Source: Candidatus Mediterraneibacter vanvlietii
GTDB lineage: Bacteria > Bacillota > Clostridia > Lachnospirales > Lachnospiraceae
Reading direction: 5' to 3'
DNA: 38,888 bases
Assembly: GCA_019113645.1 (NCBI GenBank)
Contig: DXGZ01000104.1
Location: 1-38,888 of the forward strand
Each line of letters starts with the position of its first letter. The stretch's first letter is position 1. A model generated the notes under the pieces. The model made no database searches. It was not told the DNA's origin and was given only the letters and a program-made list of their open reading frames with translations. The position numbers were made by a program, and so were the translations under genes. Below are positions 343 through 15,339 of this stretch, one piece after another.

Positions 343-1893
343 ATGAGAAATATTGTAAAGCGCGCCGTTACCGGGATACTGGCTGTATCACTGGTAGCGG
401 CGCCTATGGGTAAGGCTTATGCGGAAGAAGAGACCGGAGAGGGGACGGAAGAGCTTACGCTGGAAGAGCAGCTGCAGGCTTCTTATGACATCGTTCCGGA
501 CAGCAACAGTATAGAAGGGTGGCCGCAGGGACCGCAGATCTATGGACATTCGGGGATTGTTATGGATATGGACAGCGGTGCGGTGCTCTATGAGAAGGCG
601 GCGGATGATCAGCATTATCCGGCGAGTATTACCAAGATGCTCACAGCGCTTGTCGCCCTTGAGAATTCCGAGCTTGATGATGAGGTGTATTTTTCAGAGG
701 ACAGCACTTCATTTCTGGAATATGGTGATGCCAGTATCGGAATGACGCCGGGTGAGATTCTCAGTATGAATGATGCGCTCTACGGTATGCTCCTGGCATC
801 GGCGAATGAAGTATCTTACGCCATTGCAGAGAGTGTAGGGAAACTGATGGGCGGCGACTATAATACATTCATCCAGGAGATGAATGACCGCTCGGCAGAG
901 CTCGGATGCACGGGTTCACACTGGGTGAATGCTAACGGGCTTCACGATGAGCAGCATTACACGACAGCAAGGGATATGGCGCTGATTACCTCGGCGCTCT
1001 ATCAGTTTGACGAGTTCAAGACAGTTTCTCAGACATTGAATTATACCATTGGTGAGACCAACCTGATGAAGGAGACCCGGACATTCCAGCAGAATCACAA
1101 GATGCTCTGGCCGGGGAATTATTACTATTATGAGTACTGTACTGGCGGCAAGACCGGCTATACGGATCAGTCGCGGACCACGCTTGTGACAACTGCTGAA
1201 AATGCAGGGCTTCGCCTGGTTGCAGTGATCCTTCAGGATGATGGAGACGTCTACGTGGATACCCGTTCCATGTTTGATTACGCGTATAATAATTTCTCTA
1301 AAGTATCTCTGAGTGATCAGACACTGCCGGAGGAGATTGAATCTTATACAGATCAGGAGGCTTACGTAGTGCTTCCGAATGGGGCGCAGTTTACTGATCT
1401 TGAGTATGAGATTACGCAGGATGATGAACAGTCATCTGCCGGAACCATAACCTATACGTATAACGGACAGAATGTGGGAAGCGCAGCGGTTACACTGTCA
1501 GAGTCTTATCTGGCAGGGCTTGCGGCAGAAAATGGAAATGCAGACGGGACGCAGGCCGATGGAGCGGACGGCAGAGCTCAGGAGGAAGGACTTCCGCTGC
1601 CTGTGATGATGCTGGCAGGGGCAGCAGTTGTGATCGCGCTTCTTTTTATCATCGGATTTGTTGTGACAGTAAAGATCCGCCTGGACAGACTGAGGAGGAA
1701 ACGCAGGAGGAAACAGGCACGGGCGCGGCAGATGGCGGAGGGACGCCAGCCGCAGAACGGATACCGGGTACAGAGATCAGGAGATCCGGCGAGACCCAGC
1801 GCGGGCGCGCGGCAGAGGCGGCCGGTTCAAAACAGGACGGCGCCGCGGCACTATGAGCCGGGACGGCGTGACCGGACTGGCGGATACAGATAA
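343..1893 (+). CDS. dacF: D-alanyl-D-alanine carboxypeptidase (DacF/PBP5 family)
   Basis: Serine-type D,D-carboxypeptidase that removes the terminal D-Ala from peptidoglycan pentapeptides outside the membrane. The 516-residue protein has a signal peptide (residues 1-28, ending AYA). The penicillin-binding motifs are all present: SITK with nucleophile S95 and K98, SAN at 153-155, and KTG at 270-272. A transmembrane helix lies at roughly 420-445, after a beta-rich stalk. Unlike PBP5, which ends in an amphipathic anchor, this protein continues into a ~70-residue cytoplasmic tail very rich in Arg. The start is set by GGAGG eight bases upstream. It is transcribed alone and ends in a terminator shared with the convergent AraC gene. 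The family call is secure; the exact paralogue (dacA, dacB or dacF) is not. Confidence 0.9.
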   Translation: MRNIVKRAVTGILAVSLVAAPMGKAYAEEETGEGTEELTLEEQLQASYDIVPDSNSIEGWPQGPQIYGHSGIVMDMDSGAVLYEKAADDQHYPASITKMLTALVALENSELDDEVYFSEDSTSFLEYGDASIGMTPGEILSMNDALYGMLLASANEVSYAIAESVGKLMGGDYNTFIQEMNDRSAELGCTGSHWVNANGLHDEQHYTTARDMALITSALYQFDEFKTVSQTLNYTIGETNLMKETRTFQQNHKMLWPGNYYYYEYCTGGKTGYTDQSRTTLVTTAENAGLRLVAVILQDDGDVYVDTRSMFDYAYNNFSKVSLSDQTLPEEIESYTDQEAYVVLPNGAQFTDLEYEITQDDEQSSAGTITYTYNGQNVGSAAVTLSESYLAGLAAENGNADGTQADGADGRAQEEGLPLPVMMLAGAAVVIALLFIIGFVVTVKIRLDRLRRKRRRKQARARQMAEGRQPQNGYRVQRSGDPARPSAGARQRRPVQNRTAPRHYEPGRRDRTGGYR

Positions 1894-1915
1894 AGAGTGG
1901 AAAACAGGAAAATGG

Positions 1916-1978
1916 AAAAACAGCGTCGGCGTACGGATGGAACGGAGTGTCCGTCCATTGTGCACCGGCGCTGTTTTT
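1916..1978. terminator. Bidirectional terminator between dacF and AraC gene
   Basis: AAAAACAGCG at 1916-1925 pairs perfectly with CGCTGTTTTT at 1969-1978. A secondary stem (ACGGAT with GTCCGT) lies inside. A-tract and T-tract at the two ends suit termination in both directions. The right arm just overlaps the stop of the minus-strand gene. Confidence 0.75.
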
Positions 1979-2972
1979 ATTTATACTGCCTGCGGTAATC
2001 TGTGGGCAGTATTTTCATGGTCTCCTTAAATGCTGCGGAAAATTTGCTCTGGCTCTCATATCCCACAGCCCGGGCAATATCCGCGATGCTGTCATCGCTC
2101 TCACGGAGCAGTTTCGCCGCATGTGCGATCCGGAACTGTTTCATATACGAGGCAATGGGCATTCCATACACGGATTTGAAGATACTTTTCAGGGCTGCGG
2201 TGTTGATCAGGTACTGCCGGGACAGTTCTTCAATCGTGTAGCGGCGCTCCGGGTGCTCTGTTATGAGATCGTGGATCTGGCGTATGATTTCCACCTGTTC
2301 AGAATAATGAAGATCCAGTGTCCTCCCGCAGGGAGGCTCCGTAATGGTCAAAAAGATCAGAAGTTCCTGGCATTTCAGCTTCAGAAAGGGAATCTTAAGT
2401 TGTTCGGGAAGGTCATAGACTTCTGAGAAAATATGCTCAATATGGGGGCTTGCAGGCAGGGCGGCGGTCTCTTTTGAACCGCAGAATTTCCGGCAGAGCG
2501 CCTCCGCATCCGCCTCTGCTTCTGCGAGAAGTTCCGGGCGGTTTGTTTTCAGAACCTCCGTGTCGAGGGAGACGGACAGCCCTTCATAGTACCCGAGCGG
2601 AAGTGAGATTTCCGAGTCAAGGCATTTATCCGTAAAATGGAAGGCGAGATCTCCGCTTCCGAAATACAGACTCAGCCCGCCATGCATCTTCCACCCGATC
2701 CGTCCGCTTTTGCAGTGATCGACGGAAAGTACAGATGCTCCGTGTCTGTGGCAGAAGTGGAACCGGCTGCCGAGAAAGCGCTGATAGGACAGTTCAATCC
2801 CCGGATAGAGCTCGTAAGTCTCGGTCTTCAGCCGGACGTCTGAAGGGTAGTCTGCATCACAGAATTGCTTAAGTTCGCCGGATGTGCCCAGGGGATGCCG
2901 GATATACAGGTAGCTTCCGCGCGGGACGTCGGACAGTTTTTCATTGATCTGGGATAAAATATCCTTTTCCAT
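1977..2972 (-). CDS. AraC family transcriptional regulator
   Basis: A 331-residue DNA-binding regulator. The C-terminal ~100 residues form the double helix-turn-helix of AraC/XylS proteins, including the second-helix signature with IADIARAVGYESQSKFSAAF followed by the family's typical P-x-x-Y-R ending (PTDYRR). The N-terminal ~220 residues are a poorly conserved ligand or dimerisation domain that I cannot match to a specific sensor type. The start is supported by AAGGAG seven bases upstream. It is followed by the ArsR gene on the same strand in the upstream direction, only 55 bases away, so it may be read through from that promoter. Its target genes are unknown. Confidence 0.85.
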   Translation of the reverse strand: MEKDILSQINEKLSDVPRGSYLYIRHPLGTSGELKQFCDADYPSDVRLKTETYELYPGIELSYQRFLGSRFHFCHRHGASVLSVDHCKSGRIGWKMHGGLSLYFGSGDLAFHFTDKCLDSEISLPLGYYEGLSVSLDTEVLKTNRPELLAEAEADAEALCRKFCGSKETAALPASPHIEHIFSEVYDLPEQLKIPFLKLKCQELLIFLTITEPPCGRTLDLHYSEQVEIIRQIHDLITEHPERRYTIEELSRQYLINTAALKSIFKSVYGMPIASYMKQFRIAHAAKLLRESDDSIADIARAVGYESQSKFSAAFKETMKILPTDYRRQYK

Positions 2973-3027
2973 AGAAATCTCCTTCTGAGTGTTGTTTTAT
3001 CTGCCTGTTATTTTATCGGCAGAATTA

Positions 3028-3420
3028 TTACTGTCCACCATCCTGGGTTCTGGGACAGGTGATCTTCCCCAGCTTTTCGATCATGTGATGAAGCATCTGT
3101 GCCAGCTCTGTATCCGCAGTCCGGTAATACATCTCTTTTCCTTCCCTTCTGCTTACAATCAGCCCGCTGCTCTTTAAGAGGCGCAGATGATGGGAGACGG
3201 CCGGACTGGTCATATTTACAATCGCCGCAATATTCAGCACACATTCCTCACAGTGGCAGAGAAGCCAGAAGATGCGGAGTCGGCTGGGATCGCCGAGCTG
3301 CTTGAGTGCCTCGGAGACGCCGGCGATTTCCTCCTCGCCGGGGAGGTGTGCCTTGATCTTCTCTTCATCCTGGCTGTGGTGGTGCGGCAGTAAAATCTGA
3401 TTATCTTCTTTATTATTCAT
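3028..3420 (-). CDS. ArsR/SmtB family metal-responsive repressor (CadC-like)
   Basis: A 130-residue winged-helix repressor. The recognition helix region reads NMTSPAVSHHLRLLKSSGL and the wing RREGKEMYY, both typical of ArsR/SmtB proteins. A CHCEECVLNI segment sits where CadC and ArsR proteins place metal-binding cysteines, and an N-terminal HHHSQ cluster and a late HHMIEK may add ligands. It is divergent from the HMA and P-type ATPase genes, the usual arrangement for a sensor that releases its operator when Zn, Cd or Pb binds. The ATG at 3420 is preferred because GGAG lies nine bases before it; an in-frame TTG at 3456 lacks an SD. Family call is firm, metal identity is inferred. Confidence 0.85.
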   Translation of the reverse strand: MNNKEDNQILLPHHHSQDEEKIKAHLPGEEEIAGVSEALKQLGDPSRLRIFWLLCHCEECVLNIAAIVNMTSPAVSHHLRLLKSSGLIVSRREGKEMYYRTADTELAQMLHHMIEKLGKITCPRTQDGGQ

Positions 3421-3480
3421 AGTGCATTGCTCCAATCGGAAATACTTTTCGCCCAAACGGGAAAACTCATGGTTTCTCTC

Positions 3481-3533
3481 TTGACTAATTATATAATTCG
3501 AAGTACATTATAGTCAACAATTAAATAATTGTT
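3481..3533. promoter_or_regulatory. Divergent promoters and ArsR-type operator
   Basis: TTGACT at 3481-3486 with TACATT at 3504-3509 (17-base spacer) reads rightward to the HMA gene. On the other strand TTGACT (3517-3512) with TATAAT (3493-3488) and an 18-base spacer reads leftward to the arsR gene, so the two promoters overlap face to face. A perfect 8-2-8 inverted repeat, AACAATTA-AA-TAATTGTT at 3516-3533, overlaps the leftward -35 box and lies just downstream of the rightward promoter. It is the likely repressor operator. Confidence 0.65.
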
Positions 3534-3578
3534 TAATCAATAGAAGGAAAAGAGATTCAGATATAAAGGAGAAGAAAG

Positions 3579-3797
3579 ATGAAAAAAACCTACAAGATTG
3601 ATGTTGACTGTGCAAACTGTGCAAACAAAATGGAACAGGCTGCGAAGGAGACAGCAGGAGTAAAGGATGCTGTTGTGAACTTCATGACACTGAAGATGAA
3701 TGTGGAGTTTGAAGAAGGTCATGACGCGAAGACAGTCATGAAAGAAGTACTTAAGAACTGCAAGAAAGTAGAAGACGACTGCGAGATCTTTATTTAA
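3579..3797 (+). CDS. Free-standing heavy-metal-associated (HMA) domain protein
   Basis: A 72-residue ferredoxin-like metal carrier. The metal-binding loop reads DCANCANKM, a CxxC motif in the HMA position. The rest follows the beta-alpha-beta-beta-alpha-beta pattern of CopZ and of ATPase N-terminal domains. The downstream P-type ATPase lacks its own HMA domain, so this protein most likely supplies that function in trans. The SD is AAGGAG seven bases before the ATG. The gene is the first of the operon and is separated from the ATPase by 180 bases that contain a palindromic repeat and a second hairpin. Confidence 0.85.
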   Translation: MKKTYKIDVDCANCANKMEQAAKETAGVKDAVVNFMTLKMNVEFEEGHDAKTVMKEVLKNCKKVEDDCEIFI

Positions 3798-3800
3798 CCA

Positions 3801-3884
3801 TAACAGTTCAGCCATGGGGCTGTACGGGAGAGAAAATCATGCTCGCATGATTTTTCGAGCGGACAGAACCATGAGCGGAGCAGC
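3801..3884 (+). repeat. Palindromic repeat, copy 1
   Basis: This sequence starts four bases after the HMA stop codon. Its core AAAATCATG-CTCG-CATGATTTT is a near-perfect hairpin, and imperfect outer arms (CAGCCATGG region and ACCATGAGC region) extend it. The same element occurs in reverse orientation at 5863-5950, with ~60 bases nearly identical, so the two copies bracket the ATPase gene. Confidence 0.75.
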
Positions 3885-3908
3885 CCCGGGAGGGAAGGTA
3901 TCCCGGGG
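3884..3908. other. Short GC-rich hairpin before ATPase gene
   Basis: CCCCGGGA at 3884-3891 pairs perfectly with TCCCGGGG at 3901-3908 over a 9-base loop. No T-run follows, so it is not a standard terminator. It may protect or process the mRNA between the HMA and ATPase genes. Confidence 0.45.
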
Positions 3909-3978
3909 TGCATATATGCCAAACGGATAAACGATTAAGCATATATTTAATTAAAAAAGAGTGAGAGAGGAAGACAGT

Positions 3979-5862
3979 ATGACGAAAAAACAGAAAAAAA
4001 TGCTCATCAGGATTCTGATTGCAGCGGCTCTCCTGATCGGGTTTAATTTCCTTCCGGTCACCGGTTACGTCAGATTTATCCTGTATCTGATACCGTATCT
4101 GATTATCGGATATGATATCCTGATCAAGGCATTTAAGGGAATTAAGAACCGGCAGCCATTTGATGAGAGCCTCCTGATGGCGATTGCCACGATTGGGGCC
4201 ATGGCGATTGCCGTATATGATGACGGCGACTATACCGAAGCGATTGCCGTTATGCTGTTCTATCAGATCGGAGAGTGGTTCCAGAGCTATGCCGTTGGGA
4301 AAAGCCGCAGAAATATCAGCGAGCTGATGGACATCCGTCCGGATTATGCCAACATCGAGGCAGATGGAAAACTGGAGCAGGTAGATCCGGATGAGGTAGA
4401 AGTCGGATCTGTGATCGTGGTTCAGCCCGGAGAAAAAGTCCCGATTGACGGAATTATCATAGAGGGGAATACGGTTCTGAATACGAGCGCTCTGACCGGA
4501 GAGAGCCTTCCGCGGGAGGCGGAAGCAGGCGATGAGGTCATCAGCGGATGCATCAATATGACCGGACTCTTAAAGATAAAGACAACAAAGGAGTTCGGAG
4601 ATTCTACGGTTTCGAAGATCCTGGATCTTGTGGAGAATGCAAGTTCCAGAAAATCAAAGTCAGAAGCATTTATCACGAAATTCGCCCGGATCTATACTCC
4701 GGCGGTTGTGTACAGCGCCATTGCCCTTGCCATTCTGCCGCCCCTGGTCAGGATGTTCGGACTGGGAACTGCGCCTGAGTGGGGATCCTGGGTCTACCGT
4801 GCGCTTACTTTTCTGGTGATCAGCTGTCCGTGCGCGCTGGTGATCAGTATTCCGTTAAGTTTCTTTGCGGGAATCGGCGGCGCCAGCAACGCCGGCGTGC
4901 TGGTGAAAGGCTCCAACTATCTGGAAACCCTTTCCCAGACAAAGTATGTTGTGTTTGACAAGACCGGAACTCTGACGCAGGGCGTGTTCGAAGTAAATGC
5001 AGTGCACCACAATTCCATGGATCAGGAGAAGCTCCTCGAGTATGCGGCGCTGGCGGAGAGCGCGTCTTCCCATCCGATCAGCAAGAGTCTGCAGCGGGCT
5101 TACGGGAAAGAGATTGACCGCAGCCGCGTGACAGAGATTCAGGAGCTCAGCGGAAACGGAGTGACCGCGAAAGTAGACGGCATTGAAGTTGCGGCAGGAA
5201 ATTCAAAGCTGATGGACCGGCTTGGCGTGGCATGGATCGACTGCCATCATGCGGGAACGATCATCCATATGGCTGTGAACGGTGAATACGCAGGCCATAT
5301 TGTGATCTCCGATGTTGAGAAACCGCATGCAAGAGAGGCTGTTCAGGCATTGAAGAAAGCTGGCGTGGAGAAGACGGTTATGCTCACAGGAGATTCCCGG
5401 AAAGTGGCGGAGCATGTGGCCGCAGATCTTGGTATCGATGAAGTGCACGCAGAACTTCTTCCGGCGGATAAAGTGGCGAAGGTGGAAGAGCTGCTGAAAA
5501 AGAAACCGGAGAAGGGCAGACTGGCATTTGTCGGCGATGGTATCAACGATGCGCCGGTGCTCTCCAGAGCGGATATCGGTATCGCCATGGGCGCTATGGG
5601 ATCGGATGCCGCCATCGAGGCAGCGGACGTGGTTCTCATGGACGACGATCCCCTCAAGATCGCGAAGGCGATCAGGATATCCAGAAAATGTCTGCGCATT
5701 GTCTATGAAAATATCTGGTTCGCTATTGGAATCAAAATGATCTGTCTGCTGCTCGGTGCAGTCGGAATTGCGAACATGTGGCTTGCGATTTTTGCAGATG
5801 TAGGCGTGATGATTATCGCAGTGCTCAATGCGATACGGGCGCTGTTTGTGAAGGGATTATAG
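3979..5862 (+). CDS. Heavy-metal-translocating P1B-type ATPase (Zn/Cd/Pb class)
   Basis: A 627-residue membrane pump that exports divalent soft metals using ATP. Visible landmarks are the TGES actuator loop, the CPC membrane motif (C283-P284-C285) within SCPCALVIS, the phosphorylated Asp in DKTGTLT (D327), the SSHPIS HP locus of the nucleotide-binding domain, and GDGINDAPVL near the C-terminus. The SCPCALVISIP form of the motif is typical of ZntA/CadA pumps rather than copper pumps. There is no N-terminal HMA domain; the neighbouring 72-residue protein appears to replace it. ATG 3979 is chosen over GTG 3961 because GAGGAAG lies five bases before it. It follows the ArsR-regulated HMA gene. Substrate is inferred from motif class and sensor type. 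Confidence 0.9.
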   Translation: MTKKQKKMLIRILIAAALLIGFNFLPVTGYVRFILYLIPYLIIGYDILIKAFKGIKNRQPFDESLLMAIATIGAMAIAVYDDGDYTEAIAVMLFYQIGEWFQSYAVGKSRRNISELMDIRPDYANIEADGKLEQVDPDEVEVGSVIVVQPGEKVPIDGIIIEGNTVLNTSALTGESLPREAEAGDEVISGCINMTGLLKIKTTKEFGDSTVSKILDLVENASSRKSKSEAFITKFARIYTPAVVYSAIALAILPPLVRMFGLGTAPEWGSWVYRALTFLVISCPCALVISIPLSFFAGIGGASNAGVLVKGSNYLETLSQTKYVVFDKTGTLTQGVFEVNAVHHNSMDQEKLLEYAALAESASSHPISKSLQRAYGKEIDRSRVTEIQELSGNGVTAKVDGIEVAAGNSKLMDRLGVAWIDCHHAGTIIHMAVNGEYAGHIVISDVEKPHAREAVQALKKAGVEKTVMLTGDSRKVAEHVAADLGIDEVHAELLPADKVAKVEELLKKKPEKGRLAFVGDGINDAPVLSRADIGIAMGAMGSDAAIEAADVVLMDDDPLKIAKAIRISRKCLRIVYENIWFAIGIKMICLLLGAVGIANMWLAIFADVGVMIIAVLNAIRALFVKGL

Positions 5863-5950
5863 GTAACAGCTCAGCTCATGGAACTGCCCGATCGAAAAAT
5901 CATGCGAGCATGATTTTCTCTCCTAAGCAGCTCCATGGCTGAACTGTTAC
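5863..5950 (-). repeat. Palindromic repeat, copy 2 (inverted)
   Basis: This element begins one base after the ATPase stop codon. Its ends GTAACAGCTCAG and CTGAACTGTTAC are near inverted repeats ~24 bases long, and the core AAAATCATG-CGAG-CATGATTTT forms an inner hairpin. Reverse-complementing it gives a near match to 3801-3884. The complete palindrome suggests a mobile or once-mobile REP-like unit. Confidence 0.75.
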
Positions 5951-5979
5951 AATAATTATAAAAAGGGACACCCTGAAAG

Positions 5980-6032
5980 TCAGTTTGGGACGTAGTGAAA
6001 TTGAATTTGACTACGTCCCAAACTGATATTTT
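5980..6032 (+). terminator. Terminator after ATPase, convergent with helicase
   Basis: A perfect 16-bp stem, TCAGTTTGGGACGTAG at 5980-5995 and its complement at 6011-6026, has a 15-base loop and is followed by TATTTTTT. It ends the rightward metal operon; the leftward helicase transcript also runs into it. Confidence 0.85.
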
Positions 6033-9023
6033 TTACTGTAATTTTTTATAGAGTTCGAGGATCCCTTCATAATTCCCGCCATATATAAAATAGTAATCAA
6101 TACAGCTGCTTCCCTCGGTATAGAGATAAGTTCCATACACCGGTACATCGCAGCACATGACTGTCTCATCCGCCGCAATCCCCAGCCCGTAGCCGTATTC
6201 GGACAAAACAAGAGGCATCCGCATGATCTTTCCGCCGAAGCTGATGTACCGCGCCTTGCTGTTGATACGTTCGCGGTCTTCGGGCAGGATCCCCTTGACG
6301 GACAGCTTTTCTTCTTTCAGCCAGTCGAAATAATTCCATGTCCTTATCTTATCTCCGGCTTCGATCCGCCTTGGCAGCAGGCGGGACTCAGTGAGCAGTT
6401 TCCGCCCGTCCTGGGCGAGAAAACGGATCGCACCGCTTCGCTTATCGATCTGTACTTTTAGCTCTCCGGCGGCAAGCTCTGCAAGAGATTTTCCTGCACG
6501 GGCAGTCCATGCAGGGGCAGCATCCGGTACACAGTTCCAGTATCCTGAACCGGGCAGAGGAGCGTTCTCCCTGAAGAACTGTACCCGGATAATGGAATCG
6601 TGTACAGGAGTCAGGCGCAGGGTTCCGTCTGAACTGATCAGGTCAAGAAAACGTCTGCTGCGTCTGATGTTCCGGATCGACAGGGCGGAAGAGCGGCTGG
6701 CAGTTTCTCTCCCCAGTTTCAGCAGGCTTACATCCGGAATCGAACCGAACCGGAACGGGGAAGGATTGACGGGGCGGTCAGCGGACCGGGCGTTTTTTAA
6801 AATAGATTGCGGGAAAACAGCGCCGGTGCTTTCCGCTTTTCCGGGACTTTCTTCCTGCTGTTTTGCCGCTGCATTTGTATTCCCGGATTCCGGCAGCTGC
6901 TTCTGCGCTCTATCCGGAGCGGGTTTCGCGATGAGATCTGTCAGGTCTCCTGTGTGCAGCACGGTCAGTTCATGGAGGGCACGGGTGGCAGCTACATACA
7001 GCAGTTTCACGTATGCGTCCTCCGGCGGATAGCTTTCAGAAGACGGATGATAGAGGAGTACGGCATCGAACTCCAGTCCTTTTGTATATTCCACGGGAAG
7101 TACCATAATGCCAGCTGTAAATTCAGCGGTCTCGGGATCTGTATCGGCAAGCTCCAGTTCTGTGCCCAGCTTCTTCTTAACATCCGCTGCTTCTTCCTCG
7201 TCCCGGCAGATCACGGCGATGGTCTCCCTGCCTTCTGACAGCCAGCCGCGGATCGTCTTTATGGCTTCGGCTGTCATGGCGTCCGTATCTTTACACTGAA
7301 TGACATTTACAGGATTCCCGTGGCGACGGATCGGATCCACCGGATAGACGGGAAAACTGCCATGCCTTAATATTTCAGTTGCAAAATCCGAGATCTCAAC
7401 CGTGTTGCGATAACTTTTCTTCAGCACGCCGAACCCGTCGGGAATTCCGTTCAGCATCAGTGCTTTCAGATCCTCCCAGTCATTCAGCCCGTATCCGAAG
7501 TGAATGTTCTGTGACACGTCTCCCATGATTGTGTACGTACAGCCTCGGAGGCAGTAGCGGAGAGAGGCGTATGCCATCATGCCGAAATCCTGCGCCTCAT
7601 CGATGATCACATGACTCGCTTCGCGTATGCCGTCTGTTTCTTTGATCCGTTTATACAGATACGCCAGCGCTGCCAGGTCATACAGGTCAAATGTGTTTCC
7701 GGGATCAGGAACCGGCTTTCCGTTTTCTGCCTGCTCTCTGAGAAAATCTTCGTACAGCTCAAAGATTGAGCCTTTCCATATCTTTCCGCCGAAATGCCAT
7801 TTATATTTCCGGAAAAGTTCTTTCCGAACGTCCGGCGGGTACGCGATATCTTTGCCGGTTATTTCATTTTCCAGCTTTGACTTAAGGATCGAATTGAGCA
7901 GGTCGATTTTTCCCTGCATGGACATGAGCGGATTATTGTTCAGGCAGTTTGTGACCGTGCGTTTCTTCATGAGAAGAACGCCGTTTTCCAGAACAACATT
8001 CTCCGCAGGGATCGTCTCCTGTTCGAGCTTCCGGCAGTATTTCTCAAGGTCGTGAAACCAGTCATAGCTGCCTTTGATTCGGACTGCCTCTTCCTCCTTT
8101 CCGATCGGGCGAATGCTGTAAATCTGCGGATCCCAGTCTTCGTATAGCAGCCGTACGAAGAGCTGTTCCATTGTCATCTGAGATACCCCATACACATCCA
8201 GGTCCGGAAGCACACTGGTAATATAGTTAAGAAGGATCCGGTTGCTCCCGATAATATAGAAGTCTTCGGGACGGAAATCCTCTTCATAGTTATACAGAAT
8301 ATAAGAAATGCGGTGCATTGCCACGGTTGTCTTTCCTGAACCGGCAACTCCCTGTACGATCAGGTTCATCTTTGGCGATCTGCGGATCACCGCATTCTGC
8401 TCTTTCTGGATTGTGGCGATAATTTCTCCCAGCACTGCGCTCTTGTTTCTGGCAAGATATCTGGTCAGAAGCTCATCGTTCGCCACCACATCCGAATCAT
8501 AGAAATCAATGAGCCGGTCATCCGCGATCTCATAGGTGCGTTTGCGCTTCAGGTCGATCTCACATTGTCCCTCGTTCTTCACAGTATAACTGCAGCGGCC
8601 CATTGTATTTTCATAGTAGACGGATGCCACAGGAGCCCGCCAGTCTATGACAGCAGGTTCGGAACTGTTTTCTGAAATCCCGACACGCCCCACATAGTAG
8701 GATTCCGCGCAGGGCTGTTTCGGATCCCGGAAATCAATCCGGCCGAAATAAGGTTTCTTCCGCGCTTTCCGGCACCGGATGAGATCTCTCTGGTTTTCCC
8801 GCATCTGGGACTGGGTATTGTGGAAAAGGGCGAGGGCCTCCTTATCCTTTGTTCCGTAGGTTTCCATCAGCTCGTGCAGCTCATCGGCCAGCCGAGTGCC
8901 GCTCTTTTCCGTTTTCTCAAGATTTGTCTGTGCGATTCTGATAATTCTGGAGAGCTGTTCCTCCTCAGCTTCCCTGCTCAGCCCCGGGATGGGACGGAAC
9001 CCTTTTGCCTGATTTTGCTTCAC
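6033..9023 (-). CDS. HelD-like UvrD-family helicase fused to a GH31-N-like domain
   Basis: A 996-residue protein. Residues 1-~700 are a superfamily-1 helicase of the HelD type: a coiled N-terminal region (~20-100), Walker A VAGSGKTT with K231, motif II DEAQD at 475-479, and a late VAATRALHELTVLHTG motif. HelD proteins in Firmicutes bind RNA polymerase and free stalled complexes. After a low-complexity linker (~700-790) comes ~200 residues unlike HelD: a beta-rich segment with LKVQIDKRSGAIRFL, GYGLGIAADE and terminal DYYFIYGGNYEGILELYKK. These match the pattern of the galactose-mutarotase-like N-terminal domain of GH31 alpha-glucosidases/xylosidases, and the protein stops just where their catalytic barrel would start. 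The start is GTG with AGGTGG six bases upstream. The gene is divergent from ileS. The helicase call is firm; the C-terminal domain rests on pattern recognition. Confidence 0.85.
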   Translation of the reverse strand: MKQNQAKGFRPIPGLSREAEEEQLSRIIRIAQTNLEKTEKSGTRLADELHELMETYGTKDKEALALFHNTQSQMRENQRDLIRCRKARKKPYFGRIDFRDPKQPCAESYYVGRVGISENSSEPAVIDWRAPVASVYYENTMGRCSYTVKNEGQCEIDLKRKRTYEIADDRLIDFYDSDVVANDELLTRYLARNKSAVLGEIIATIQKEQNAVIRRSPKMNLIVQGVAGSGKTTVAMHRISYILYNYEEDFRPEDFYIIGSNRILLNYITSVLPDLDVYGVSQMTMEQLFVRLLYEDWDPQIYSIRPIGKEEEAVRIKGSYDWFHDLEKYCRKLEQETIPAENVVLENGVLLMKKRTVTNCLNNNPLMSMQGKIDLLNSILKSKLENEITGKDIAYPPDVRKELFRKYKWHFGGKIWKGSIFELYEDFLREQAENGKPVPDPGNTFDLYDLAALAYLYKRIKETDGIREASHVIIDEAQDFGMMAYASLRYCLRGCTYTIMGDVSQNIHFGYGLNDWEDLKALMLNGIPDGFGVLKKSYRNTVEISDFATEILRHGSFPVYPVDPIRRHGNPVNVIQCKDTDAMTAEAIKTIRGWLSEGRETIAVICRDEEEAADVKKKLGTELELADTDPETAEFTAGIMVLPVEYTKGLEFDAVLLYHPSSESYPPEDAYVKLLYVAATRALHELTVLHTGDLTDLIAKPAPDRAQKQLPESGNTNAAAKQQEESPGKAESTGAVFPQSILKNARSADRPVNPSPFRFGSIPDVSLLKLGRETASRSSALSIRNIRRSRRFLDLISSDGTLRLTPVHDSIIRVQFFRENAPLPGSGYWNCVPDAAPAWTARAGKSLAELAAGELKVQIDKRSGAIRFLAQDGRKLLTESRLLPRRIEAGDKIRTWNYFDWLKEEKLSVKGILPEDRERINSKARYISFGGKIMRMPLVLSEYGYGLGIAADETVMCCDVPVYGTYLYTEGSSCIDYYFIYGGNYEGILELYKKLQ

Positions 9024-9545: not shown

Positions 9546-9680
9546 TCTGACGCAGCTATGTGTCGATTAAGGACCGTAAAGGAACGCCGGCACTCAGGCT
9601 GCGTATCTTGCAGCCTTATGTACCGCTGCGTTCCGCCCCGAGCGAGAGCGTGTCCGCAATTGACACATAGCTGCGGCGGA
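9546..9680 (+). repeat. Long hairpin element between T-box and ileS
   Basis: CGCAGCTATGTGTC at 9551-9564 is perfectly complementary to 9662-9675, and imperfect pairing extends both outward and inward (GGAACGC near 9581 with GCGTTCC near 9633; GGCTGC near 9597 with GCAGCC near 9610). The ~135-base unit folds on itself and sits wholly inside the ileS 5' UTR, after the T-box terminator. It is not part of any T-box fold I know. It may be an inserted palindromic repeat or an extra regulatory structure. Confidence 0.6.
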
Positions 9681-9704
9681 CCAGAAACAGAAAGGAAAAT
9701 CAGT

Positions 9705-12700
9705 ATGTATAAGAAAGTCCCCACCGACATGAATTTTGTCGGACGAGAAAAAGAAGTGGAGAAATTCTGGGATGACAATGATATCTTCCAGAAGAGTATC
9801 GAAGAGAGAGAGGGATGTCCGGAATACATTTTCTACGACGGACCTCCGACAGCAAACGGAAAGCCGCACATCGGTCATGTGCTGACCCGTGTCATCAAGG
9901 ATATGATTCCGAGATACCGCACGATGAAGGGCTACATGGTTCCGAGAAAAGCGGGCTGGGATACCCACGGTCTCCCGGTAGAGCTCGAGGTGGAGAAATC
10001 CCTCGGCCTGGACGGAAAAGAGCAGATCGAAGAGTATGGTCTGGAGCCGTTCATTGACAAATGTAAAGAAAGCGTCTGGAAATACAAAGGCATGTGGGAG
10101 GATTTTTCTGCCACAGTTGGTTTCTGGGCTGATATGGAACATCCATATGTAACATACCACAACTCGTTTATCGAATCTGAGTGGTGGGCGCTGAAGCAGA
10201 TCTGGGACAAAGGACTGCTCTACAAAGGATTTAAGATCGTGCCTTACTGCCCGCGATGCGGTACGCCGCTCTCCGCGCAGGAAGTAGCTCAGGGGTATAA
10301 AGATGTAAAAGAGCGCTCAGCAGTTGTGCGCTTCAAGGTAAAAGACGAGGATGCATATATCCTTGCATGGACGACCACACCGTGGACACTGCCGTCCAAC
10401 CTTGCGCTCTGTGTAAATCCGAAGGAAGACTATGCGAAAGTAAAGGCAGCGGACGGATATACTTACTATATGGCGTGCGCGCTGCTTGATACGGTTCTCG
10501 GAAAACTGGCGGAAGACGGAAAACCGGCTTACGAAGTTCTCGAGACATACAAGGGAACTGATCTGGAAGGCAAAGAGTATGAGCCGCTTTATCAGTGCGC
10601 GGCAGATGCAGCTGCAAAACAGAACAAAAAGGCATTCTTCGTGACATGTGACGAATATGTTACACTGACAGACGGTACAGGTGTTGTTCATATCGCGCCG
10701 GCATTCGGTGAAGACGATGCGAACGTAGGAAGAAAATATGACCTCCCGTTCGTACAGCTTGTGGATGAAAAGGGTAACATGGCTGAGTCCACTCCGTTTG
10801 CAGGGCTGTTTGTAAAGAAAGCAGATCCGGAAGTGTTAAAGGATCTGGATTCCAGAGGGCTTCTCTTCGATGCGCCGAAGTTCGAGCACAGCTATCCGCA
10901 CTGCTGGAGATGCGACACTCCGCTGATCTACTATGCGCGTGAGTCATGGTTCATCAAGATGACAGCGGTAAGAGATGACCTGATCGCGAACAACAACACG
11001 ATCAACTGGATCCCGGAGAGCATCGGAAAAGGACGTTTCGGCGACTGGATCGAGAACGTTCAGGACTGGGGCATCAGCCGTAACCGTTACTGGGGAACTC
11101 CGCTCAATATCTGGGAGTGTGAGTGCGGACATATGCATTCTGTCGGAAGCATTGCAGAGCTTAAAGAAATGTCCGACAACTGCCCGGATGATATCGAGCT
11201 TCACCGTCCGTACATTGATGAAGTGACGATCAAATGCCCGAAATGCGGCAAAGAGATGCACCGTGTGCCGGAAGTAATCGACTGCTGGTTTGACAGCGGA
11301 TCCATGCCGTTTGCACAGCATCATTATCCGTTTGAGAATAAAGAGCTCTTCGAGCAGCAGTTCCCGGCAGACTTTATCTCTGAGGCTGTTGACCAGACGA
11401 GAGGCTGGTTCTATTCACTGCTCGCAATCTCAACGCTGATCTTTAACAAAGCGCCGTATAAGAATGTTATCGTTCTCGGCCACGTTCAGGATGAGAACGG
11501 CCAGAAGATGAGCAAATCCAAGGGAAATGCGGTCGATCCGTTTGACGCGCTCGAGACATACGGAGCTGACGCGATCCGCTGGTACTTCTATGTAAACAGC
11601 GCGCCGTGGCTTCCGAACCGTTTCCATGGAAAAGCAGTGACAGAGGGACAGAGAAAATTCATGGGAACTCTGTGGAACACTTATGCGTTCTTTGTTCTCT
11701 ATGCGAATATTGATGATTTTGACGCGACAAAATATACACTGGAGTATGACAAACTCTCTGTTATGGATAAATGGCTGCTTTCCAAGCTGAATACCATGGT
11801 AAAAGAAGTGGACAATGATCTGGCGAATTACCGGATTCCGGAGGCTGCCCGCGCGCTTCAGGAGTTCGTGGACGACATGAGCAACTGGTACGTAAGAAGA
11901 AGCCGCGAACGTTTCTGGGCAAAAGGAATGGAGCAGGATAAGATCAATGCATACATGACACTGTATACAGCTCTTGTCACAGTATCAAAGGCAGCAGCGC
12001 CGATGATTCCGTTTATGACAGAGGAGATCTATCAGAACCTTGTGCGCAGCATTGACAAAGACGCACCGGAGAGTATCCATCTGTGCATGTTCCCGGAAGT
12101 GAATGAGTCGCAGATCGATGCGGAGCTTGAGCAGAACATGGATAACGTACTCAAACTGGTTGTTATGGGCCGTGCCTGCAGAAACGCGTCCAATATCAAG
12201 AACCGTCAGCCGATCGGGCAGATGTTTGTAAAGGCAGGGTTTGAACTGCCGGAATTCTATCAGGAGATCGTTGCAGACGAGCTGAATGTGAAGAATGTTA
12301 AGTTTACGGAAGATGTAAGAGATTTTACTTCATATAGTTTTAAACCGCAGTTAAAGACAGTTGGTCCGAAATATGGTAAACTGTTAGGTGGAATCAAAGC
12401 AGCGCTTGACAGTGTAGACGGAAACGCTGCAATGGATGAGGTCAATGCGACCGGATCCCTGAAATTAGATGTGAACGGACAGGAGATCACCCTTTTCAGA
12501 GAAGATCTTCTGATCGAGACCGCTCAGATCGAGGGATTTGTATCGGAAAATGACAATGGCATCACAGTAGTACTTGATACGAATCTGACGCCGGAACTTC
12601 TTGAGGAAGGTTTTGTGCGTGAGATCATCAGCAAAGTTCAGACAATGAGAAAAGAGGCTGACTTTGAAGTTATGGACCGTATCCGCGTGACTTATGCGGG

Positions 12701-12860
12701 AAGTGAGAAGGCAGAGGGAATCTTTGCGAAATACGGCAGTCAGATCGCAGGTGAAGTGCTCGCCAATGAAGTCGCGAAAGCAGAGCCGACAGGCTATGTG
12801 AAGGAGTGGAAGATCAACGGTGAAGCGGTTACAATGGGCGTGGAAAAGGAAGGAAAATAA
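9705..12860 (+). CDS. ileS: Isoleucyl-tRNA synthetase
   Basis: This enzyme charges tRNA-Ile with isoleucine and edits valine. The 1051-residue class I synthetase has the HIGH motif at 55-58 (PHIGHVL) and KMSKS at 601-605. It also has a W-W-rich editing region (AWTTTPWTLPSN), Zn-type cysteines (CPRCG near 190, CECGH and CPKCG near 480-525), and a long anticodon-binding C-terminus. The length and the YDGPPTANGKPHIGH form suggest the eukaryote-like type 2 IleRS, which is often less sensitive to mupirocin; this subtype call is an inference. ATG 9705 is chosen over upstream starts because those lie inside the hairpin element, and AAAGGAAA precedes this ATG. The Ile T-box upstream confirms the role. 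glgP follows after four bases. Confidence 0.96.
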   Translation: MYKKVPTDMNFVGREKEVEKFWDDNDIFQKSIEEREGCPEYIFYDGPPTANGKPHIGHVLTRVIKDMIPRYRTMKGYMVPRKAGWDTHGLPVELEVEKSLGLDGKEQIEEYGLEPFIDKCKESVWKYKGMWEDFSATVGFWADMEHPYVTYHNSFIESEWWALKQIWDKGLLYKGFKIVPYCPRCGTPLSAQEVAQGYKDVKERSAVVRFKVKDEDAYILAWTTTPWTLPSNLALCVNPKEDYAKVKAADGYTYYMACALLDTVLGKLAEDGKPAYEVLETYKGTDLEGKEYEPLYQCAADAAAKQNKKAFFVTCDEYVTLTDGTGVVHIAPAFGEDDANVGRKYDLPFVQLVDEKGNMAESTPFAGLFVKKADPEVLKDLDSRGLLFDAPKFEHSYPHCWRCDTPLIYYARESWFIKMTAVRDDLIANNNTINWIPESIGKGRFGDWIENVQDWGISRNRYWGTPLNIWECECGHMHSVGSIAELKEMSDNCPDDIELHRPYIDEVTIKCPKCGKEMHRVPEVIDCWFDSGSMPFAQHHYPFENKELFEQQFPADFISEAVDQTRGWFYSLLAISTLIFNKAPYKNVIVLGHVQDENGQKMSKSKGNAVDPFDALETYGADAIRWYFYVNSAPWLPNRFHGKAVTEGQRKFMGTLWNTYAFFVLYANIDDFDATKYTLEYDKLSVMDKWLLSKLNTMVKEVDNDLANYRIPEAARALQEFVDDMSNWYVRRSRERFWAKGMEQDKINAYMTLYTALVTVSKAAAPMIPFMTEEIYQNLVRSIDKDAPESIHLCMFPEVNESQIDAELEQNMDNVLKLVVMGRACRNASNIKNRQPIGQMFVKAGFELPEFYQEIVADELNVKNVKFTEDVRDFTSYSFKPQLKTVGPKYGKLLGGIKAALDSVDGNAAMDEVNATGSLKLDVNGQEITLFREDLLIETAQIEGFVSENDNGITVVLDTNLTPELLEEGFVREIISKVQTMRKEADFEVMDRIRVTYAGSEKAEGIFAKYGSQIAGEVLANEVAKAEPTGYVKEWKINGEAVTMGVEKEGK

Positions 12861-12864
12861 GAAA

Positions 12865-15339
12865 ATGTTCAGCAAAAGATTTGAGAAAGAAACATTTAAA
12901 GAGACAGTAAAGGACAATATCAGAACCCTTTACAGAAAAACAATCGACGAAGCGAATCCGCAGCAGCTGTTTCAGGCTGTTTCCTATGCAGTGAAGGATG
13001 TCATCTTTGATGACTGGTTTGCAACTCAGAAAGCATATGACGATGCGGACGCCAAGACAGTGTACTATATGTCAATGGAGTTCCTGATGGGACGTGCGCT
13101 TGGAAACAACCTGATTAACATGACAGTTTACAAAGAGGTGAAGGAAGCCCTTGATGAGATGGGGATCGACCTGAACGTGATCGAGGACCAGGAGCCGGAT
13201 GCGGCTCTTGGCAACGGCGGTCTGGGACGTCTGGCTGCATGTTTCCTCGACTCTCTGGCAACATTGAACTATCCGGCATACGGATGCGGAATCCGTTACC
13301 GTTATGGTATGTTCAAGCAGGAGATCCGCGATGGGTATCAGGTAGAGGTTCCGGATAACTGGCTGAAAGAAGGCAATCCGTTCGAGCTCAGAAGAGAAGA
13401 GTATGCGAAAGAAGTCCGTTTCGGCGGAAATATCCGTTTCGAGAAAGATCCGGTTACAGGAAAAGACAAGTTTATTCAGGAAAACTACGAATCCGTACTT
13501 GCGATTCCGTACGATATGCCAATTGTGGGATATGGAAACCATGTGGTCAACACACTGCGTGTGTGGGATGCAAAGGCAATCACAGACTTCAAACTGGATG
13601 AGTTTGACAGAGGAAATTACCACAAGGCAGTAGAACAGGAGAACCTTGCGAAGCTGATTGTCGATGTACTTTATCCGAATGACAACCACTATTCAGGAAA
13701 AGAACTTCGTCTGAAACAGCAGTATTTCTTCATTTCAGCCAGCCTGCAGGCCCTGATTGCGAAGTATAAGAAAAAACACAGTGATGTACGAAAACTCCAC
13801 GAGAAAGTTGTCATTCAGATGAATGATACACATCCGACAGTTGCAGTTCCGGAGCTGATGCGTCTGCTTATCGATGAGGAAGGCTTAAGCTGGGAAGAGG
13901 CATGGGATGTAACGACAAAAACATGCGCCTATACAAACCATACCATTATGGCTGAGGCTCTTGAGAAATGGCCGATCGATCTGTTCTCACGGCTCCTGCC
14001 GCGTATCTACCAGATCGTTCAGGAGATTGACCGCCGTTTCGTGATCCAGGTGCGTGAGATGTATCCGGGCAACGAGGATAAGGTAAAGAAGATGGCGATC
14101 CTTATGGACGGACAGGTTCGTATGGCAAATATGGCGATCGTTGCAGGATTTTCCGTAAACGGTGTGGCGAAACTTCACACAGAAATCCTGAAACATCAGC
14201 AGCTGAAAGATTTCTATGAGATGATGCCGGAGAAATTCAACAACAAGACGAATGGTATCACTCAGAGACGGTTCCTCGCACACGGCAACCCGCTTCTTGC
14301 GGACTGGATCACAGACAAGATCGGTGACGGATGGATCACGGATCTTTCCCAGATCGCGAAGCTGAAACCGTACGCAGATGATGACACGGCAAGACGGGAG
14401 TTCATGGAGATCAAATTCAAGAATAAAGTACGTCTTGCGAAATATATTAAAGAGCATAACGGAATTGATGTTGATCCGCGCTCTATTTTCGATGTACAGG
14501 TAAAACGTCTGCATGAGTATAAGCGTCAGTTCCTGAACATCCTTCATATTATGTATCTGTACAATCAGATCAAGGAGCATCCGGAGATGTCATTCTATCC
14601 GAGAACATTTATCTTCGGAGCCAAGGCGGCAGCAGGTTATCTGCGCGCGAAAGAGACGATCAAACTGATCAACTCCGTGGCGGATGTGGTGAACAATGAC
14701 CGCAGCATCAACGGAAAACTGAAAGTTGTATTTATTGAGGATTACCGTGTATCCAATGCAGAGATCATCTTCGCGGCAGCAGATGTCAGCGAGCAGATCT
14801 CAACAGCATCCAAGGAAGCGTCTGGAACAGGAAACATGAAATTCATGCTGAACGGAGCTCCGACTCTGGGAACCATGGACGGCGCAAATGTGGAGATCGT
14901 TCAGGAAGTCGGCGAGGAGAACGCGTTTATCTTCGGACTCAGCTCAGAGGAAGTAATCAATTACGAGAAAAACGGCGGCTACAATCCGCAGGATATCTAC
15001 TTCAATGACTGGGAACTCAAGAGAGTTGTGGATCAGCTCATGGACGGCACCTATGCGCACGGAGACCACGAGATGTACAAGAACCTCTATAATTCCCTGC
15101 TCAATACACAGAGCACAGACCGGGCGGATATGTATTTCATCCTTAAGGACTTCCGTTCTTATGCAGATGCCCAGAAGAGAGTGGAGGAAGCATACAGAGA
15201 TCAGAACAGATGGTCAAGAATGGCAATGCTTCAGACAGCTTGCAGCGGAAAATTCTCATCTGACAGAACAATTGAAGAGTATGTAGAAGATATCTGGAAA
15301 CTGGAGAAAGTAGAGGTTCCGTCCGGACAGGACGATTAG
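12865..15339 (+). CDS. glgP: Glycogen/starch/alpha-glucan phosphorylase
   Basis: An 824-residue cytoplasmic enzyme that releases glucose-1-phosphate from alpha-1,4-glucans. The pyridoxal-phosphate lysine lies in EASGTGNMKFMLNG (K659). The phosphorylase pattern is continuous from MSMEFLMGRALGNN near 70 and EDQEPDAALGNGGLGRLAACF near 105 to the C-terminus. It is full length for the family. ATG 12865 is used because AAGGAAGG precedes it; an upstream in-frame ATG lies inside ileS. It sits four bases after ileS, so it is probably part of the same T-box-controlled transcript unless a promoter lies within ileS. That would be an unusual coupling of glycogen breakdown to isoleucine-tRNA charging. Confidence 0.95.
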   Translation: MFSKRFEKETFKETVKDNIRTLYRKTIDEANPQQLFQAVSYAVKDVIFDDWFATQKAYDDADAKTVYYMSMEFLMGRALGNNLINMTVYKEVKEALDEMGIDLNVIEDQEPDAALGNGGLGRLAACFLDSLATLNYPAYGCGIRYRYGMFKQEIRDGYQVEVPDNWLKEGNPFELRREEYAKEVRFGGNIRFEKDPVTGKDKFIQENYESVLAIPYDMPIVGYGNHVVNTLRVWDAKAITDFKLDEFDRGNYHKAVEQENLAKLIVDVLYPNDNHYSGKELRLKQQYFFISASLQALIAKYKKKHSDVRKLHEKVVIQMNDTHPTVAVPELMRLLIDEEGLSWEEAWDVTTKTCAYTNHTIMAEALEKWPIDLFSRLLPRIYQIVQEIDRRFVIQVREMYPGNEDKVKKMAILMDGQVRMANMAIVAGFSVNGVAKLHTEILKHQQLKDFYEMMPEKFNNKTNGITQRRFLAHGNPLLADWITDKIGDGWITDLSQIAKLKPYADDDTARREFMEIKFKNKVRLAKYIKEHNGIDVDPRSIFDVQVKRLHEYKRQFLNILHIMYLYNQIKEHPEMSFYPRTFIFGAKAAAGYLRAKETIKLINSVADVVNNDRSINGKLKVVFIEDYRVSNAEIIFAAADVSEQISTASKEASGTGNMKFMLNGAPTLGTMDGANVEIVQEVGEENAFIFGLSSEEVINYEKNGGYNPQDIYFNDWELKRVVDQLMDGTYAHGDHEMYKNLYNSLLNTQSTDRADMYFILKDFRSYADAQKRVEEAYRDQNRWSRMAMLQTACSGKFSSDRTIEEYVEDIWKLEKVEVPSGQDD

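Follow-up and report, generated by a model that had tools for sequence, protein, structure and literature searches.

Why would a predicted RNA polymerase recycling motor end in a domain whose relatives sit in sugar-cutting enzymes? The question is raised by a gene in a 38,888-nucleotide stretch of DNA from Candidatus Mediterraneibacter vanvlietii, called here the window. A first-pass annotation of this DNA had described the gene as a HelD-type helicase fused to a beta-sandwich resembling the N-terminal domain of GH31 glycosidases, with the catalytic barrel absent. The features of the gene, listed from the N-terminus to the C-terminus of its product, are as follows.

6033..9023, minus strand: the whole gene, HelD plus a C-terminal GH31-N-like domain, 996 amino acids from the first listed start codon
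6915..8996, minus strand: HelD motor with both arms, residues 10-703, from the NF041464 and 6wvk matches (dN/dS 0.06-0.20)
8631..8645, minus strand: DWRAP motif, residues 127-131, read from the sequence and invariant in 8 close homologues
8328..8351, minus strand: Walker A GVAGSGKT, residues 225-232, read from the sequence
7587..7601, minus strand: Walker B DEAQD, residues 475-479, read from the sequence
6774..6914, minus strand: variable linker, residues 704-750, from dN/dS and the distance between motif VI and the domain
6681..6773, minus strand: conserved pre-domain stretch with the FGxxPxxxxL motif, residues 751-781, from the motif count and dN/dS
6036..6680, minus strand: GH31 N-domain-like beta-sandwich, residues 782-996, from profile and fold evidence
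6417..6461, minus strand: strand pair LKVQIDKRSGAIRFL, residues 855-869, aligned with GH31 rows
6231..6302, minus strand: stretch in which the enzyme positions Y-G-L-G-Q, R-G and N are replaced, residues 908-931, from 31 fusion and 30 GH31 rows
6078..6098, minus strand: DYYFIYG, residues 976-982, common to GH31 enzymes just before their barrel

The assignment of the motor is borne out. The NCBIfam model HelD_BACSU (NF041464) matches the helicase part with an E of 1.5e-108 and 363.8 bits, a score that does not reach the curated cut-off of 419 bits for this model, and the solved Bacillus subtilis HelD (6wvk) matches with an E of 1.1e-71. The fused proteins form a subfamily separate from the HelDs that pass the NF041464 cut-off. 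Residues 47-289 of the query align with residues 56-297 of the 6wvk chain, and residues 449-703 with 520-767. Walker A and Walker B are invariant across 8 close homologues, except for the second residue of Walker A, which is V or A.

Parts of PMC8655204 and PMC10719064 give a long N-terminal secondary-channel arm and a DWR[A/S]P motif as features of class I HelDs, and the latter source also mentions an extra residue in the DWRAP motif of class III. The fused HelD has the long arm (query 47 aligns with chain 56) and a DWRAP motif without an added residue. Because the mobile 2A head of B. subtilis HelD comprises residues 610-774, according to a section of PMC7749167, the extra C-terminal part starts where this head ends. 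The resemblance to class I HelD (B. subtilis HelD/YvgS) thus extends over the motor motifs, DWRAP, an N-terminal arm of similar length, and the 2A end, where query 703 corresponds to chain residue 767 of 774. The difference is some 290 additional C-terminal residues, consisting of the linker and the GH31-N-like domain. HelDs in Fig. 3 of PMC8655204 reach 939 amino acids at most, and the portion of that paper concerned attributes size variation to the arms. By homology, we infer that the gene product is a class I-type HelD, which would act as an ATP-driven remover of stalled RNA polymerase and so in polymerase recycling.

The distance from motif VI to the C-terminal domain varies from 106 to 225 residues among relatives. 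A short GPKRI-like motif is present in the linkers of 12 of the 31 fusions (L061, L064, L066-L073, L075 and L081) and absent from the clade of the window, and 29 of the 31 fusion proteins have the FGxxPxxxxL motif ahead of the domain.

The identity of the C-terminal domain becomes apparent at the level of the family. Taken singly, the sequence from the window matches Pfam PF13802 weakly (E 0.23, 12.1 bits versus a 27-bit cut-off), and its best two matches in the PDB are unrelated, with E about 1. Among the 31 fusion members, 17 match PF13802 at E<=1 (best 3.3e-5), and a profile of the fusion-family domains finds 13 PDB sequences, all of them GH31-type glycosidases, with 7kmp (2.3e-13) and 5jou (1.1e-12) as the best. 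Alignment of the fusion domains with the N-domains of 9 GH31 enzymes by hhalign, an HMM-HMM comparison from which 5 of 14 enzymes with long inserts or divergent sequences were dropped, gave a probability of 99.6. Because of these family-level E-values and the hhalign result, we reject chance resemblance, and the GH31-N-like sandwich proposed from the window alone is upheld for the family as a whole. Structural comparison supports a predicted beta-sandwich, with GH31-type proteins as the structural matches among those listed; no Tudor-like fold is among these matches, a list that does not exclude other families. A structure model built from 8 close fusion domains alone, with no GH31 rows, had a pLDDT of 34. 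In Pfam, the PF13802-type domain belongs to the galactose-mutarotase-like fold group.

The other two parts of the description were also correct. In GH31 enzymes, the stretch corresponding to DYYFIYG continues into the barrel. The gene itself has no barrel: its reading frame ends at 6033, and the gene that follows downstream points toward it. Frames end 0-10 residues past the domain in all 31 fusions.

The earlier concern that the fusion might be confined to this assembly, with a frame error at the join, is settled by its recurrence. A search for close relatives returned 24 matching loci. Seven of these are close relatives, one of them the Lachnospiraceae member M. catenae, and all 7 are HelD fusions with the same join; among the other 17, 14 were translated, and their sequences continue as GH31-like proteins. 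Matches to the domain profile came from 40 of 299 family genomes, 21 of them with the fusion in intact frames of 1011-1145 amino acids, including single-contig genomes such as G046 (the window genome consists of 144 contigs). The presence of the same join in 7/7 close loci and in 21/299 family genomes rules out a frame error there. Three more family genomes carry a cut or split fusion (G149 split, G048 and G006 at contig ends). Thus, 24 of the 299 retain the fusion, each from a different genus handle. The remaining 16 family matches include 7 that were checked, all with a barrel, and 9 that were either assigned to GH31 enzymes from the length of their frames or not classified.

Within the genus, 22 of 58 genomes matched, 17 as fusions in frames of 998-1099 amino acids; this set includes the genomes of the close-relative search and overlaps with it. 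Across the phylum, 21 of 398 genomes matched, and the only HelD fusion recognized was that of the window's own genome. Fourteen of the 20 other phylum matches were checked and have a barrel, and the lengths of their frames led the remaining 6 to be counted as GH31 enzymes or to stay unassigned. Two loci, L084 and L085, are GH31 enzymes and were removed from the fusion counts.

Two copies depart from the usual arrangement. In G149 (L073), HelD (3510-5762) and the domain (5650-6621) lie in two frames that overlap by ~112 bases in the linker, which is either a natural split or an assembly slip. In G336, of the same genus, a 287-amino-acid frame near a contig end (L166, 3838-4701) joins the middle of HelD to the last quarter of the domain, through either an internal deletion or misassembly; a P-type-ATPase-like gene adjoins it, as in the window. 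Because the fusion is patchy (17/58 genus genomes) and seemingly internally deleted in G336, the fused gene is dispensable. A HelD profile at E<=1e-20 matched 58 of 150 family genomes, 14 of which carry the fusion. Scoring of at most 6 candidates per genome at this threshold gave no second intact HelD for 7 of these 14. The window's genome does have a second, unfused HelD on another contig (L026, G000:C76:2335-4242), which is 30% identical to the fused one and sits, as L126, in a different branch of the HelD tree.

Phylogenetic analyses bear on how often the fusion arose. In a helicase tree of 60 rows (11 of the HelD loci L116-L145 included), the 30 fused rows are separated from all others by a single branch (100/99, 200/200 bootstraps), with L158, L156 and L159 as the nearest unfused HelDs. 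In 14 unfused relatives, the protein stops 8-23 residues beyond motif VI, and the addition is therefore clean. In a domain tree, 31 fusions likewise form one branch (100/99) apart from 30 GH31 N-domains, drawn from 36 enzymes after N-domains of at least 300 residues and the duplicate L052 were dropped. Helicase and domain distances agree among 29 proteins (Mantel r 0.90, with 0 of 2000 permutations as high). These results are read most simply as a single fusion event whose product was then inherited vertically and at times lost.

The idea that the domain was captured from a neighboring alpha-xylosidase gene stands in part. As to origin, capture from a GH31 gene is favored by the top profile scores among 38 GH31 enzymes, which belong to the Lachnospiraceae enzymes L052/L085 (116 bits), but the fork of the domain tree that would name a donor is unsupported (38/0), so the tree cannot fix the source. 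As to the neighborhood today, the proposal is not supported: when the 31 fusion loci were scanned with a barrel profile, up to 6 kb on each side and less where contigs ended, no GH31 barrel turned up, and a GH31 gene next door is therefore rejected. A mobile or plasmid origin was also rejected, because the sole plasmid matches to the domain were two Hymenobacter GH31 genes. The strongest match among phages was positions 1078-4179 of MT836747.1, an unannotated faecal ‘Bacteriophage sp.’ whose frame is 98% covered and 46% identical to the whole fusion; this entry is perhaps bacterial DNA.

Within the clade of the window, dN/dS was computed over 8 pairs. Values are 0.06-0.20 for the helicase and 0.05-0.20 for the domain, which evolves somewhat faster than the helicase, and the highest value for each comes from the closest pair. 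The linker gave 0.27-1.01 in the 6 pairs where it was computable, and the pre-domain stretch 0.04-0.20 in 7 pairs and 0.84 in the closest pair. Purifying selection is evident in the domain and not in the linker.

Like the GH31 N-terminal domain (PF13802; alpha-xylosidases 7kmp, 5jou and 2xvg), the fused domain has the sequence profile, the fold and a set of scaffold residues, namely R813, G864, E879, S941, G944, Y945, D976, Y977 and F979. In contrast to it, the fusions lack the barrel and, in a comparison of 31 fusions with 30 GH31 rows, have lost the enzyme letters Y908, G909, L910, Q912, R921, G922 and N931 (positions 908-912, 921-922 and 931) and the LTG that follows. Another 21 positions are conserved in fusions only, including W896, Y898, W901, A924, Y926, S928, G930, C958, P961 and G964. 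A GYG..WDN-type pattern occurs in 29 of 36 GH31 N-domains and in none of the 31 fusions; an xGLG pattern matches 8 fusions, and we attribute these matches to the GYGLG that the window's clade carries at a different position. The lost motifs are ones that we take to border the catalytic barrel in GH31 structures. Judging from these alignments, the loss of enzyme residues together with the newly conserved residues speaks against mere retention of an active-site wall like that of GH31 enzymes and is consistent with a new interface. Enzyme-specific residues would likewise vanish if the domain bound a ligand or its own copy.

The gene neighborhood offers no recurring partner. By eye, the genes around the fusion in the window (3028-5862 and 9558-15339) are an ArsR-like regulator on the minus strand and, on the plus strand, a metal P-type ATPase, an isoleucyl-tRNA synthetase and a glycogen phosphorylase. 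Among 29 of the 31 fusion loci (L001 and L004 were left out), no neighbor family occurs in more than 4 of the 23 loci outside the window's clade, and a conserved operon partner is rejected. This absence is in keeping with a function that resides in the HelD protein itself. We also considered whether the fusion replaces RNAP delta, for which the window's own genome has no match at E<=1. Most of the Clostridia examined in PMC8655204 are reported to have helD but no rpoE, so the absence of delta is not specific to the fusion, and this candidate is rejected as well.

With moderate confidence, we favor the explanation that the gene encodes a HelD with an exapted, non-catalytic GH31 N-domain that is flexibly tethered to the 2A end and docks or regulates through a partner, most likely a protein. 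The linker would tether the domain to the end of the moving 2A head, and the surface that formerly bordered the sugar-cutting barrel may now serve to bind a partner. The partner would most likely be RNA polymerase or a factor bound to it, and the domain would hold or regulate the recycling motor, by analogy with the PcrA Tudor domain, which docks its helicase on RNA polymerase. Docking or regulation through a protein partner is favored because the 2A tether, the long linker and the newly fixed residues resemble the PcrA layout. According to parts of PMC5397179 and PMC8318588, the PcrA C-terminal domain is a Tudor fold on a long linker that binds RNAP, and PcrA/UvrD and the fusion have in common an SF1-type motor, a flexible C-terminal linker of variable length, and a small beta-rich domain (PMC8318588). 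The fold and the motor family are different, however, and RNAP binding, shown for PcrA, is proposed for the fusion. The analogy is one of layout, not of fold. Also in favor of this explanation, 7 of the 14 fusion genomes examined with the HelD profile yielded no second intact HelD. Against it stand the patchy distribution of the fusion, the separate frames in G149, the somewhat faster evolution of the domain, and the low pLDDT of the model built without GH31 rows.

Other explanations deserve consideration. The domain may instead pack on its own motor as an intramolecular lid, or on a second HelD, and thereby control the ATPase or the storage of polymerase as dimers. The newly conserved aromatic and small residues offer a plausible contact surface for such packing, and helicase and domain diverge in step. 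However, the match in distances is not evidence of contact because shared history alone yields it, and with some 100 residues or more of linker separating the domain from motif VI, a fixed lid becomes less probable, so we regard this explanation as possible but rather unlikely. Somewhat less likely again is a small-molecule sensor, in which HelD would be switched by a sugar or similar metabolite bound to the sandwich, tying polymerase recycling to carbon supply. The galactose-mutarotase-like fold group and the gut fermenter hosts speak for it, although the enzyme positions (Y-G-L-G-Q, R-G, N and LTG) are gone and the GYG..WDN-type pattern is missing in 31/31, and no carbohydrate gene recurs nearby, nor is there a GH31 barrel in the fusion loci. 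The GH31 N-domain in isolation is not known to act as a sugar sensor. Lower still do we place the particular version in which a glycosidase domain of gut bacteria was turned into a sensor of sugar or glycan metabolites on the recycling motor, such that the clearance of stalled transcription follows carbohydrate supply.

It is improbable that the domain is an evolutionary relic, captured by chance and tolerated without function at the C-terminus. Its patchy presence, with one internally deleted and one split copy, is what a relic would produce, but domain dN/dS values of 0.05-0.20 beside a linker at 0.27-1.01, and retention in 24/299 family genomes of different genus handles, with 21 intact frames, are not. 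An artefact, whether frame error, misassembly or chance resemblance, might be suspected from the weak single-sequence Pfam match and the 144 contigs of the window genome; with the join in 7/7 close loci, in-frame fusions in 21/299 genomes including single-contig G046, and a PDB profile E of 2.3e-13, its likelihood is negligible.

Searches of the open-licence literature for HelD phylogeny in Clostridia and Lachnospiraceae, for helicase fusions to GH31 or mutarotase domains, and for C-terminal extensions returned no description of a HelD-GH31-N fusion, and the words ‘C-terminal’, ‘fused’ and ‘extension’ do not occur in the available portions of the HelD survey PMC8655204. HelD has been described as a motor with two arms, to which the lineage reported here adds a third, tethered module. 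Its single origin provides a natural experiment, with closely related HelDs that have or lack the domain. If the domain docks on RNA polymerase, then it would represent a new polymerase-binding fold made from part of an enzyme, whereas binding of a metabolite would link the recycling of transcription to nutrition. In both cases, a GH31 N-domain exists here without its barrel.
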